DNA of 64,000 nucleotides from Cryobacterium sp. MP_M3 (lineage in GTDB: Bacteria; Actinomycetota; Actinomycetes; Actinomycetales; Microbacteriaceae): positions 62,001-126,000 of the forward strand of contig NZ_JADOVI010000008.1 of assembly GCF_015752155.1 (NCBI RefSeq), given 5' to 3'. Under the pieces are notes generated by a model. It worked only from the letters and a program-made list of their open reading frames with translations. It was not told the DNA's origin and did not search any database. This document shows positions 43,416 to 50,196 of this stretch, one piece after another; position 1 is the first letter of the stretch, and each line of letters starts with the position of its first letter. Made by a program: the position numbers and the translations under genes.

Positions 43416-45008
43416 TCAGTCATAGCGGCCCTCCGCCCACCAGCGGCGGTCGTCGAGTTGGAGAAGCCAGGCGGCGCCGTCGGCATCGACGATTTGCACC
43501 CGGTCGACCTGGCGGCCGCCTCCCGGTCGCCACCAGCCCTCATGCACGGGCCACGGGCCGGCCCAGGCGACCACCGGACGCAGGTCGTCCTGATGCCCTG
43601 CGGGGGAGAACTGCACGGGATCGGCGGGGAGGAGACCGCGCTCGTCCACCAGGACCTGGCTTCCGTCCTGGGTGAGCAGGCAGACGGGTCGTCGCTCCCG
43701 GAACACGGTTGCCGGCAAGGGCCCTGCCAGGCTCCCCGGCCACGGGGCCGCGGCGGACCCGGCCGGCCCGGCGTGACGGCCGGCAGGCGCATCCCCCCAG
43801 GGGACGAAGACCTGGCGCTCGGCGAGCAGCCTGCCGCCGCCGACCACGGCCGTGACCACCCCCTCGTGCCCCAGCATGCTCTGCACCCGGGACAGGGCGT
43901 GATGAATGCGTTCGTCTGGTCCGGAGCCCCAGAGTCCCGGCTCGTGGTTGCCGGCCGCGTCGACCTCCTCCGGGAGGGTCCGGAGCCAGCACACCGCCGA
44001 GTCGAGCCCGGGATCGCCGGCCCCGCTGCCCTGCAGCTGCCAGCGCACCCGGTCGACGACGTCGGCGGCGTCGAACCAGCGCGGATGCCGCCAGCTGCGA
44101 CCGACCATCCGGCCGGAGTCCAGGCCGACCTCGACCCGGAGGGTCGTGCAGACCAGGCGGGCGCCGGCGAGGCCGTCGACGAATCCGTCGGCCGGCGCGC
44201 GGGCCGCGAAGGCGACCTGGTCGATCCGGTCGAGGGGAGGCTCGAACCGGAGCAGCAGGTCGCGCTGCGGGGGCGGCACCCTGGCCTGCACGGGAGCCGG
44301 ATCGTCGCCGCGGGCCTGCGCCTGCGCCGCCATACCCGCGGGCCCGAACCGCTGCGCGACCTGTGCGGCGGGAAGGGCGGCGAGATCGCCCAGGGTGTGC
44401 ACGCCCAGGCGCCGCAGCAGCAAGGCCAGCCGCGCGTCCACGACCAGGGCGACCGGCATTCCGGCCAGGAAGCCGGGTGAGTGTCCGGGCGGCACCGCCC
44501 GGACCGTCGCCCGTTGAGCGCTCCGCGCGGCCTGCTCAGCGGCGAACGGCCCGTCGGCGATGCCGACCCGGGCATCGGCGACCCCCAGGTCGAGGACAGC
44601 GTCACGGATGGATTGCCCGGCCGGTTCCTCGCCGCCGTAGAACCGGGCGGGACCCCGGGCCCGCACGGCGCAGGTGCCCGGGCGGATCGTCGCCACGCCG
44701 GGGGCAACCTCCTCGAGCCGGGCCAGCACCGGCTCGAACGCCCGCTCGTCCAGCAGCGGGTCGTAGGGCAGCACGACGAGGCTCCCGCACCGGTATTGCG
44801 CCTCGCGGAGCGTCAGCCCGCGCCGCACCCCGTCAGCCCGCGCCGACGCCGACGCCGCGAATACCGTTCCCTGGGAGATCAGGGCCAGCGGTGCATCGCG
44901 GGGGAGACCGGCCTCCGCGCCGGCGGCGGCGACCGGCCAGTCCGGGCACCAGAGCACGATCGTCCTCGAGGATGCGGGCGGGGTCGGGGGAAGCTCAGGG
45001 GCGACCAC
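43416..45008 (-). CDS. imuB: ImuB, Y-family polymerase-like mutasome subunit
   Basis: 530 aa. It aligns with Y-family polymerases (TIVLWCPDWPVAAAGAEAG, ALISQGTVFAASASARADGV, RLGVHTLGDLAALPAAQVAQ) but lacks the acidic catalytic triad; the first motif has WCPDW in place of DMDAF. That is the hallmark of ImuB, which acts as an adaptor linking DnaE2 to the sliding clamp. The GTG start at 45008 is 2 bp after imuA. The C-terminal part (VVTAVVGGGRLLAERQVFVP) matches the ImuB-specific tail. Confidence 0.92.
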   Translation of the reverse strand: MVAPELPPTPPASSRTIVLWCPDWPVAAAGAEAGLPRDAPLALISQGTVFAASASARADGVRRGLTLREAQYRCGSLVVLPYDPLLDERAFEPVLARLEEVAPGVATIRPGTCAVRARGPARFYGGEEPAGQSIRDAVLDLGVADARVGIADGPFAAEQAARSAQRATVRAVPPGHSPGFLAGMPVALVVDARLALLLRRLGVHTLGDLAALPAAQVAQRFGPAGMAAQAQARGDDPAPVQARVPPPQRDLLLRFEPPLDRIDQVAFAARAPADGFVDGLAGARLVCTTLRVEVGLDSGRMVGRSWRHPRWFDAADVVDRVRWQLQGSGAGDPGLDSAVCWLRTLPEEVDAAGNHEPGLWGSGPDERIHHALSRVQSMLGHEGVVTAVVGGGRLLAERQVFVPWGDAPAGRHAGPAGSAAAPWPGSLAGPLPATVFRERRPVCLLTQDGSQVLVDERGLLPADPVQFSPAGHQDDLRPVVAWAGPWPVHEGWWRPGGGRQVDRVQIVDADGAAWLLQLDDRRWWAEGRYD

Positions 45009-45010
45009 GG

Positions 45011-45700
45011 TCAGCCTGCCCGTTCCCGGAGGAACCCGGCCGCGTCGTTCGACGGGTGCGGTTCACCGCCCCCGAAGACCACCGAGGCCTTTCGCGTCGT
45101 TCCTCCGCCGTGCCCGGCGGCGGCGACGACCGTGACGCACACCCCGGACAGGGCCCCGTGGCCGGGACCCAGCCCTTCCCAGTCCCGGGCCTCGAGGGTC
45201 AGCTCCGCCTCGCACTGCGCCCACGGTCCGGCGACGAGGAGGACACCTCCCCGCTGGCGGAGCCGCGCGGCGAGACGGGCGGCATCGGCGGAACGCGCCT
45301 GGAGCGGCGGGCGCACGGCCACGACCGGCAGGACGTCCACGAGTGCGGCCGTCACGGCCAGCCAGCGTTCACCCGGCAACGGCACCTGAATGGTGCGGTC
45401 GAGGGCGATTCCCAGGCCTGCGGCCGCTTCGATTCCGAAGTCCGGCAGGCTGACGACCCCGCACCATGCGCCCTCCCGCGACGGGGCGGCGAGGAGGGCC
45501 ATCAACAGCAGGGTGGAGTTCGGCACCGTGTACACGCACCCGCGCCGCAGCCCTCCACCGGGGAAGAGCCCGGCCAGGGCAGGCAGGGTCGGCAGATGGC
45601 CGCCGAGTCGGGTGGCCTGCATCGCGTCGATCCGGTCCTGGAGCCCGGACGCAGGCCCACCACCGGACGGTGACGACAGGGTGGCGGTTGCACTGGACAC
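45011..45700 (-). CDS. imuA: ImuA-type RecA-like mutasome protein
   Basis: About 229 aa. It resembles the RecA-fold ImuA' proteins: LAGLFPGGGLRRGCVYTV takes the place of a P-loop but lacks GKT, followed by LLLMALLAAPSREGAWCGVV. It works with ImuB and DnaE2 in SOS mutagenesis. I set the start at the GTG 45700 (V-SSATATLSSPSGGG), because the frame's upstream codons cover the SOS promoter. That GTG is 6 bp after the -10 box, so translation is probably leaderless. It lies 31 bp downstream of the SPFH gene. Confidence 0.88.
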   Translation of the reverse strand: MSSATATLSSPSGGGPASGLQDRIDAMQATRLGGHLPTLPALAGLFPGGGLRRGCVYTVPNSTLLLMALLAAPSREGAWCGVVSLPDFGIEAAAGLGIALDRTIQVPLPGERWLAVTAALVDVLPVVAVRPPLQARSADAARLAARLRQRGGVLLVAGPWAQCEAELTLEARDWEGLGPGHGALSGVCVTVVAAAGHGGGTTRKASVVFGGGEPHPSNDAAGFLRERAG

Positions 45701-45706
45701 ACCACC

Positions 45707-45735
45707 ATAATCGAACGTATCTTCGATTAAGTCAA
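45707..45735 (-). promoter_or_regulatory. SOS promoter of imuA-imuB-dnaE2 with embedded LexA box
   Basis: On the minus strand the -35 is TTGACT (45730-45735), the spacer is 17 bp, and the -10 is GATTAT (45707-45712). Inside the spacer and touching the -10 is TCGAACGTATCTTCGA (45711-45726 as read on the plus strand), which matches the actinobacterial LexA box TCGAAC-N4-GTTCGA with one mismatch. LexA bound here would cover the promoter. The -35 overlaps the stop codon of the SPFH gene. Confidence 0.8.
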
Positions 45736-46535
45736 TGGTCTCTCTCGGCGGCATTTCCGGTCGCCGCGGCTGCCTCACGGGCGAGGAAGGCGCCGAGTTC
45801 ACCGATTGTGCTCATCAGCGGCGCCGGGAAAACGACCACGGTGTTCTTGTCCACCCCGATCTCAACGAGGCTCTGCAGGTTCCGGAGCTGCAGGGCCAGC
45901 GGGTGCGCCATCATCGTGTCCGAGGCGTCGCCGAGGGCGGCCGCGGCAAGGGACTCGCCCTCCGCGTTGATGATCTTCGCCCGCTTCTCCCGTTCGGCCT
46001 CGGCCTGCCTGGCCATCGCCCGCTTCATCGTGTCGGGGAGCAGGATGTCCTTGAGCTCGACGAGGGTGACCTCCACGCCCCAGTCCAGGGTCTGCACGTC
46101 GAGGATCTCGCGAATATTGACGTTGAGGATGTCCGTCTCGGCGAGGGTCTCATCCAGGGTGTGCTGGCCGACGACCTTCCGCAGCGTGGTCTGGGCGATC
46201 TGGTCGATCGCGGCGTGCACGTTCTCGATGGCGATCACCGACTTCACGGGGTCGACGATCCGGAAGTAGGCGACGGCGGACACCCCCACGCTGACGTTGT
46301 CCCGGGTGATGATGCCCTGGGATTGGATCGGCAGGGTCACGATCCGCAGGGCCACGCGGTGCAGCACATCGACGAACGGGATGATGAAGGTCAGTCCGGG
46401 CTGGCGCGTGCCGATCAGACGCCCGAACCGGAGCACCACGCCCTGCTCGTACTGTTTAATCACCCGGATTGAATTCGTGGCGACGATGAACGCCAGCACG
46501 AGCACGACCGCCAGAACCACGATGAACACGACCAT
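45732..46535 (-). CDS. SPFH/Band 7 (stomatin-like) membrane protein
   Basis: 267 aa. One N-terminal transmembrane helix (VVFIVVLAVVLVLAFIVA, residues 2-19) is followed by the Band 7 domain (YEQGVVLRFGRLIGTRQPGL, LDWGVEVTLVELKDILLP) and a charged helix (RQAEAEREKRAKIINAEGE). This is the slipin layout without a partner NfeD gene. It organises membrane microdomains or associates with proteases. Its stop codon overlaps the -35 of the imuA promoter. It diverges from the SRAP gene. Confidence 0.93.
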   Translation of the reverse strand: MVVFIVVLAVVLVLAFIVATNSIRVIKQYEQGVVLRFGRLIGTRQPGLTFIIPFVDVLHRVALRIVTLPIQSQGIITRDNVSVGVSAVAYFRIVDPVKSVIAIENVHAAIDQIAQTTLRKVVGQHTLDETLAETDILNVNIREILDVQTLDWGVEVTLVELKDILLPDTMKRAMARQAEAEREKRAKIINAEGESLAAAALGDASDTMMAHPLALQLRNLQSLVEIGVDKNTVVVFPAPLMSTIGELGAFLAREAAAATGNAAERDH

Positions 46536-49203: not shown

Positions 49204-49260
49204 CGATCGATAGGGTGAATACAGGAAAATCGACCGTTGAACCCGAAAGTGACCGCGAGG

Positions 49261-50196
49261 ATGTCAGAAAGCCCGGCCGCGGCTTCACCTTATGAGGTGT
49301 TGGGCGTCACGCCGTCGGCGAGTGCCGAGGAGCTTCGCCGCGCCTACCGCCGTCTGCTGCGCCAGACGCACCCGGATGTCGGCGGCAGCGCCGTGCAGTT
49401 CCACGCCGTGCAGGTGGCCTGGGAACGGGTGGGCACTCCCGACAGCCGGGCCGCCTACGACGGCCTGCGCTACCCGGACTCCGGTGAGCCGCCCGTCCAC
49501 GCCGCCCACGCCTCGGCGCACACGGCCGGCCAGGCCACTCGCTCCGGGCTCAAGGCGCGGATGTACGGCCACCCGGGCGGGCTGGCGCGGCAGCGCTACC
49601 TCGACCTCCTGCGCGAATGGGCCGGCCGCGGCACCACCATCGACGACCCCTACGCGCCGGCGCTCGTGCGGTCGGCCCCGCGGGAGATCCGTCACTGCCT
49701 GGCGAAGGCCCTCGCCGAAGAGTCCACCGCCCAGCAGATCAGCGGACTGGGGATCGGCTTCACGGCGTGGCACGACGTTGCCGCGGGCGGGCACGTCGAC
49801 AAGATCGACCATGTCGTGCTCGGGCCGGCCGGGCTGTTCGGGGTGCTCTCCGAGGACTGGGGCGCACCCGTCCAGTTGCGGCGCGGCGAACTGGTCGGCG
49901 AGTCCCTCCACGACGAGGACCACCCCGTCGACAACTTCACGGATGCCGCCCGCGCCCTGGCCAGGTCGCTCCGGGTGCGCTTCACCGCGATCGTGATCGT
50001 GCTGCCCGACGATGCCGTCTCGGAGCCCCTGACGGTTCCGGGTCGCGGACGGCGCCCCACTGTGATCACCGTTCCCCGGTCACGGCTGGTCGGGCTGTTG
50101 CGCGACGGCCTGCCCGGCATGGAGCGAGGCAGCTTCGAGAAGGTGTTCGAGCTGCGGAGCCGTCTGCAGGACGGCATCCGCTTCATCGCGGACTAG
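49261..50196 (+). CDS. J-domain protein with a NERD-like C-terminal region
   Basis: About 311 aa. Residues 10-70 are a J domain (PYEVLGVTPSASAEELRRAY) with the HPD motif at 37-39 (QTHPDVGG), so it should stimulate a DnaK-type chaperone. There is no G/F or zinc-finger region. From about residue 160 on the sequence resembles the nuclease-related NERD domain: HVDKIDHVVLGPAGLFGVLS, followed by a beta-rich stretch. The ATG at 49261 is chosen; a TTG at 49237 is possible. The stop is shared with the convergent HAD gene (CTAG). Confidence 0.82.
   Translation: MSESPAAASPYEVLGVTPSASAEELRRAYRRLLRQTHPDVGGSAVQFHAVQVAWERVGTPDSRAAYDGLRYPDSGEPPVHAAHASAHTAGQATRSGLKARMYGHPGGLARQRYLDLLREWAGRGTTIDDPYAPALVRSAPREIRHCLAKALAEESTAQQISGLGIGFTAWHDVAAGGHVDKIDHVVLGPAGLFGVLSEDWGAPVQLRRGELVGESLHDEDHPVDNFTDAARALARSLRVRFTAIVIVLPDDAVSEPLTVPGRGRRPTVITVPRSRLVGLLRDGLPGMERGSFEKVFELRSRLQDGIRFIAD

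Follow-up and report, generated by a model that had tools for sequence, protein, structure and literature searches.

A J-domain protein of Microbacteriaceae with a NERD-type fold and no motif lysine: a probable DnaK co-chaperone

Introduction

What is the role of a protein in which a J domain is joined to a nuclease-related (NERD) fold? The question is raised by a gene in a 64,000-nucleotide stretch of the Cryobacterium sp. MP_M3 genome (contig NZ_JADOVI010000008.1, positions 62,001 to 126,000), which is termed the window here. A preliminary description of the sequence saw in the gene product, termed J-NERD below, an N-terminal J domain followed by a NERD-like region, and proposed that it recruits chaperones to nucleic-acid or stress-related substrates. 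The sites at which Hsp70 works are determined by class C J proteins, and a client is known for few of those in bacteria. Automatic annotation presumably names the protein 'J domain-containing protein'. A search of the open-access literature, with subscription papers mostly outside its scope, found no description of a J-domain/NERD or J-domain/nuclease protein. A pseudo-nuclease serving as chaperone adaptor is not known to have been described. The protein is of interest because it is common in one actinobacterial family and, in the window genome, is present alongside two ordinary DnaJs; it offers a compact system in which to ask what NERD domains bind.

Gene and domain layout

The open reading frame begins with the ATG at 49261, ends with the stop codon at 50196 on the + strand, and encodes 311 amino acids. 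There is an in-frame TTG upstream at 49237, yet homologue alignments begin at the methionine of 49261. The features are as follows.

49261..50196, +: J-NERD gene, 311 aa, stop codon included
49288..49461, +: J domain, residues 10-67 (Pfam DnaJ; matches to J-domain structures)
49369-49377, +: HPD, residues 37-39, in the J domain
49477..49545, +: variable linker, residues 73-95 (pLDDT <50)
49552..49680, +: family-specific extension, residues 98-140 (GHPGG..R..Y....REW.GRG), mostly helical in the model
49681..49875, +: NERD-like core, residues 141-205, holding E153, E154, D183-H184 and S197-E198-D199
49846..49854, +: L196-S197-E198, aligned by hhalign over the NERD (N/D/E)-x-K motif, the Glu at the lysine position
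49876..50193, +: remaining C-terminal domain, residues 206-311, less conserved (median dN/dS 0.29)

The full-length predicted structure has a pLDDT of 81.5, with linker residues 73-95 disordered. Mean entropy is 2.55 bits in residues 71-97, as against 1.04 in the J domain and 1.08 in the NERD core. No segment of the window protein is likely to span the membrane, the top 19-residue hydropathy being 1.26.

The J domain and chaperone class

The J domain is clear by several measures. Pfam DnaJ matches residues 10-67 with an E-value of 6.4e-14 (52.2 bits versus a cut-off of 27.8), the first 70 residues of the model match J-domain structures with Z about 10, and the HPD lies between predicted helices 22-36 and 44-57. 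All 35 aligned orthologues, scanned singly, match DnaJ. HPD is intact in 155/155 family members examined, and orthologues thus retain the J domain; it should be pointed out that members were sampled by family similarity, so that J-less relatives may be under-sampled. NCBIfam returns J-domain models only, plus one match at E 0.014.

Neither a G/F region nor a zinc finger is found in J-NERD by sequence inspection and Pfam scan, and features of both are visible in the genome's own DnaJs. By inspection, the one on contig C10 is a type II DnaJ, and the one on contig C6, which has CxxC motifs, is of type I. J-NERD therefore brings the J proteins of its genome to three and is the sole class C one. 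Mycobacterium tuberculosis is described as having two DnaJs (PMC10803776), and the DnaJ pair of the window genome resembles them. With class C (type III) J-domain proteins, J-NERD shares an HPD-containing J domain, an unrelated C-terminal domain and the lack of a zinc finger and G/F region; it differs from them in having a NERD-type nuclease fold as that C-terminal domain.

Homology of the C-terminal half to NERD

The segment singled out in the preliminary description, IDHVVLGPAGLFGVLS, comprises residues 182-197, and the pattern DH...GP.G.[FYWV] occurs once across the six frames of the window. The proposed search against the NERD model gave a mixed outcome when single proteins were scanned. 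The window protein matches Pfam NERD over residues 150-241 with an E-value of 0.003 and falls short of the cut-off (18.5 versus 22.1 bits), and four of ten scored orthologues exceed it (L078, L101, L106 and L110), one (L080) having no match. NERD is matched at E<=1 by 34 of 35 aligned orthologues scanned singly, the best at 6.8e-8. When the NERD model was run against the genomes of 40 relatives, the cut-off was reached at J-NERD in 19 of 25 genomes of the genus and in G049, with the best match in G001 (34.2 bits); the window's own gene is not among the 19, and two of the 20 J-NERD matches reach the cut-off only with neighbours in frame.

Profile comparison gives a firmer result. With hhalign, 30 C-terminal halves were aligned with five NERDs of the genus at a probability of 96.4% and an E-value of 1.3e-9 over 99 columns. 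By sequence comparison, then, the C-terminal domain is homologous to NERD beyond chance, and the combination of J domain and NERD-like region first noted from the letters alone is borne out by both sequence and structure prediction. J-NERD has in common with NERD proteins (PF08378) a helix with a Glu and the D-H...GP.G.F signature, of which D183 is found in 154/155 and H184 in 155/155 members. It differs from them in its fusion to a J domain, its position in a separate clade and the lack of the motif lysine.

Predicted fold

No solved structure was matched by sequence for residues 101-311. Modelled alone, the C-terminal half has a pLDDT of 90.2 and a pTM of 0.89. The best solved structure by VIA-align is McrC (Z 8.3, rmsd 3.6 over 131 residues, 5% identity), followed by AF1548 (7.6), Cdn1 (7.5), VC1899 (7.2) and Can2 (7.1). 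Among the 50 matches listed, 40 are nucleases or nuclease complexes by title, including Holliday junction resolvases, restriction enzymes and NucC; most have Z between 4.7 and 7.7, and most VIA-align Z scores are between 5 and 8, a range for which the tool cautions that similarity may be due to chance. Foldseek gave no match at E<=0.001 with the C-terminal model, McrC ranking first at E 0.059, and with the full-length model its list was filled by J domains. The assignment to a nuclease fold is made because the matches are mostly nucleases and because the sequence is homologous to NERD. On the model, the C-terminal domain resembles the PD-(D/E)XK-type common core; the prediction is thus of a nuclease-like fold and not of an unrelated one. 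J-NERD would share this fold with McrC and other PD-(D/E)XK nucleases, but the canonical catalytic motif is not kept.

The former active site

Residues were counted in 155 family members: 131 distinct orthologues (distinguished by the last 240 residues, from 177 loci, the window copy being L006), 18 rows from divergent genomes, which were not de-duplicated, and six members of a hydrophobic subfamily described below. hhalign places L196-S197-E198 over the NERD N-T-K, E153 over the glutamate of the GE motif and D183 over the aspartate. A lysine at position 198, that of the NERD motif lysine, is found in none of the 155. The position is occupied by Glu in 126/131 orthologues, 10/18 divergent rows and 0/6 of the hydrophobic subfamily, and position 196 is acidic in 1/131, 1/18 and 5/6, respectively. 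E154, H184 and S197 are invariant (155/155) and D183 is present in 154/155. Of the acids in the site, E154 and D183 are thus conserved, and E153 (143/155) and E198 vary. K181 is found in 121/131 orthologues, and arginines R110, R144 and R299 are conserved.

In ordinary NERDs the motif lysine is present in 37 of 41 (30/32 from related genomes and 7/9 further ones). The related-genome set came from 34 loci, two of which (L202 and L206) gave no open reading frame match and were omitted; the rows were not de-duplicated, and in five NERDs outside the first pattern the motif was read by eye, all having Lys. Since four ordinary NERDs also have no lysine (L004, L213, L221 and L246), its absence is not unique to J-NERD. 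The position of the motif acid in the 32 related-genome NERDs is Asn in 20, Asp in 10, Ser in one and Thr in one. As the acid is mostly Asn in ordinary NERDs, its loss does not distinguish J-NERD; the lysine does.

An active nuclease by the standard motif was rejected as the main reading, as the lysine is in no member, and nuclease activity appears unlikely from the sequence. The near-invariance of E154, H184, S197 and D183 nevertheless means that the old active-site region is strongly constrained. Among 11 sequences of the genus, with 23 to 51 of the 55 pairs usable, the NERD core has a median dN/dS of 0.10 (31 pairs), the J domain one of 0.14 (23 pairs) and residues 206-311 one of 0.29. These ratios point to purifying selection on the J domain and NERD core in the genus. 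With the canonical set absent, yet three site residues fixed and dN/dS low, the site looks like one kept for binding or structure rather than one that is decaying. Such constraint is unexpected for plain loss of function and could reflect ligand binding or chemistry.

Distribution and descent

A full-length orthologue is present in 37/37 genomes of the genus, with 63-100% identity, and the window protein is 95% identical to proteins of Cryobacterium strains. With the C-terminal half as query (E<=0.001), 280 of the 398 Microbacteriaceae genomes gave a match, as did 62 of the 85 genera; at least two of the 280 genomes (G367 and G445) carry ordinary NERDs only. Of 22 divergent genomes searched again, 19 have a joined J-NERD (G164 being counted through locus L140), G374 has it in two frames, and G367 and G445 have none. 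In G374 (locus L240, C1:2466398-2467026) the J half is out of frame with most of the NERD half, through either a broken gene or an assembly error. The remaining 118 of 398 genomes have no match to the query; of 15 genomes unmatched either here or in the order-level search below that were searched again with a profile, 14 gave nothing and one a weak match (E 0.14). The unmatched genomes indicate that J-NERD is dispensable in some lineages. Among the unmatched genomes listed, 11/20 have a size of 1.8 Mb or less.

At the level of the order (E<=1e-8), 48/396 genomes match: 31 Microbacteriaceae, 12 from one further family (f14) and five weak NERD-type matches. The class gives 20/394, comprising 19 Microbacteriaceae and one f14, and the phylum 5/246, of which two are Microbacteriaceae and three lack a J domain. 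The soluble J-NERD thus occurs in Microbacteriaceae and in a second family of the same order. Searches of 72,556 plasmid and 50,697 phage records gave no match to the C-terminal half.

Phylogenetic analysis places 22 J-NERDs in one clade apart from 27 related-genome NERDs with support of 100/100 (29 J-NERDs had been picked, the other seven not being among the representative rows). Within the clade, 15 Microbacteriaceae rows group together (96/96) and seven f14 rows are outside. The simplest reading is a single fusion, with mostly vertical inheritance thereafter.

A hydrophobic subfamily

J-NERD paralogues with one or two hydrophobic stretches are found in G030, four g56 genomes and one g93 genome (loci L218:2083-3486, in G030, and L247-L251; open frames of at least 458 aa). 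The stretches separate the GHPGG extension from the NERD core, and their hydropathy is weaker in G030. Three of these proteins were scanned: DnaJ is above the Pfam cut-off in all three, and NERD is matched in one, just below cut-off. The site reads E-S-V, D-S-G or M-S-M, with no lysine, and both E198 and D199 are missing (6/6). This subfamily is rarer than the soluble form and is probably membrane-anchored. Pieces of a hydrophobic-type paralogue are also found in two frames in G019.

Genomic neighbourhood

A comparison of 46 loci found no steady operon partner and pointed to no client. Cryobacterium neighbours include DUF1345-like, HAD and SMP-30-like genes, named by eye; the set is complete in one Cryobacterium locus and partial in another and in Glaciibacter. 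In the other 43 loci (40 from other genera and f14, and L078-L080) these neighbours are missing, save for one HAD match 5.7 kb away. An endonuclease/exonuclease/phosphatase-family gene is found near J-NERD in nine of 46 loci (1.2 to 6.8 kb), a DUF7059/methyltransferase gene in six of 46, an AP_endonuc_2 TIM-barrel gene in all seven f14 loci, and an Hsp20 gene in two loci. A small gene with an S4 RNA-binding domain is present in seven of 46 (L146, L153, L155, L156, L160, L167 and L177), 1.3 to 3.1 kb away and on the opposite strand. Recurring neighbours are tentatively taken for remnants of ancestral gene order. The most frequent neighbour cluster (10/46 loci) appeared to be low-complexity by eye, and several clusters are shadow frames.

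A few kb upstream of J-NERD, window positions 43416-45802 contain what by eye is an ImuB/ImuA-like mutagenic-repair pair; among the 46 loci, ImuA/ImuB are near J-NERD elsewhere only in L036, also Cryobacterium. HAIR, CIRCE, LexA and SigH-like patterns are not above shuffles in 127 unique upstream regions, with one mononucleotide shuffle per region as a weak control.

What the NERD-like half may do

The best reading, to which we assign a probability of roughly 0.6, is that J-NERD is a class C J co-chaperone whose NERD-type fold, devoid of the motif lysine, takes DnaK to a client or site. The J domain would dock on DnaK and trigger ATP hydrolysis, as the intact domain and HPD suggest. The NERD-type PD-(D/E)XK fold would be the binding module that directs DnaK to a single client or cellular location, the flexible linker connecting the two halves. 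One may go further, tentatively and at somewhat less than even odds: a nuclease fold would have been converted to the sole purpose of targeting DnaK, the soluble and membrane-anchored J-NERDs together being pseudo-nuclease DnaK adaptors for a lineage-specific machine, such as a nucleoid, ribosome, division or envelope complex. The chaperone half of the earlier proposal is therefore the natural reading of the J domain. Its nucleic-acid or stress-substrate half fares less well, given the lack of the motif lysine in 155/155 members and the lack of heat-shock or SOS operator enrichment upstream, as judged against a weak control.

PD-(D/E)XK folds often bind nucleic acid, and as a sub-case of the adaptor reading J-NERD might be a non-cutting J protein that brings DnaK to the nucleoid, the ribosome, or repair or RNA complexes, a reading close to the earlier proposal. 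Besides this general property of the fold, conserved R110, R144 and R299 are consistent with such targeting, as is the S4-domain gene within 3.2 kb in 7/46 loci. That neighbour, which we take to be Hsp15-like, makes a ribosome link worth testing; however, it is missing from 39 loci and is not co-directional, and ImuA/ImuB proximity is confined to Cryobacterium and LexA enrichment is lacking upstream. This sub-case is doubtful.

A second sub-case, an adaptor to cell-division or envelope proteins, is by analogy with SmdA and seems unlikely. In Staphylococcus aureus, SmdA is a membrane NERD protein needed for division and morphology (PMC9040797). It lacks several of the most conserved NERD residues, and according to its authors the role of NERD in bacteria was unstudied before (PMC9040797). 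SmdA is thus a counterpart to J-NERD as a NERD-like domain that has lost conserved residues and is functional without demonstrated nuclease activity (PMC9040797), and the hydrophobic inserts of the J-NERD subfamily fit an envelope location. But SmdA, compared here by description, has an N-terminal membrane helix and, in the available part of the source, no mention of a J domain (PMC9040797), and no membrane segment is likely in the window protein.

An active nuclease with a rearranged site is quite improbable. Here E153/E154, D183 and E198 or D199 would hold the metal, K181 would replace the lysine, and DnaK would exert control via the J domain. The predicted fold, the retention of D183 (154/155) and E154 (155/155), the frequency of K181 (121/131) and E198 (126/131), and the acid at 196 in 5/6 of the hydrophobic subfamily are in its favour. 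Yet the motif lysine is in no member, only 2/149 soluble members have an acid at 196, E153, K181 and E198 vary (D183 in one member), and the hydrophobic subfamily is without E198 and D199. A part in anti-phage defence, suggested by the occurrence of NERD and PD-(D/E)XK domains in defence genes, has very little to commend it, as no PADLOC family is matched at E<=1, no plasmid or phage record is matched, and the gene is present in 37/37 genomes of the genus. A DnaJ can have a role in how a defence protein senses phage (PMC12169576).

Other NERD and J-domain relatives

The minus strand of L220 (G024) encodes another protein with a J domain; it has a hydrophobic stretch at its C-terminal end and does not match NERD. 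The NERD model also matches a short protein family (2-64 matches), presumably YraN, which in L005 adjoins a ComM-like gene. The window's genome has, in addition, three NERD proteins with hydrophobic C-terminal ends within 36 kb (L001, L002 and L004; G000:C9:115175-151044), in one of which, L004, SSM replaces N-T-K.
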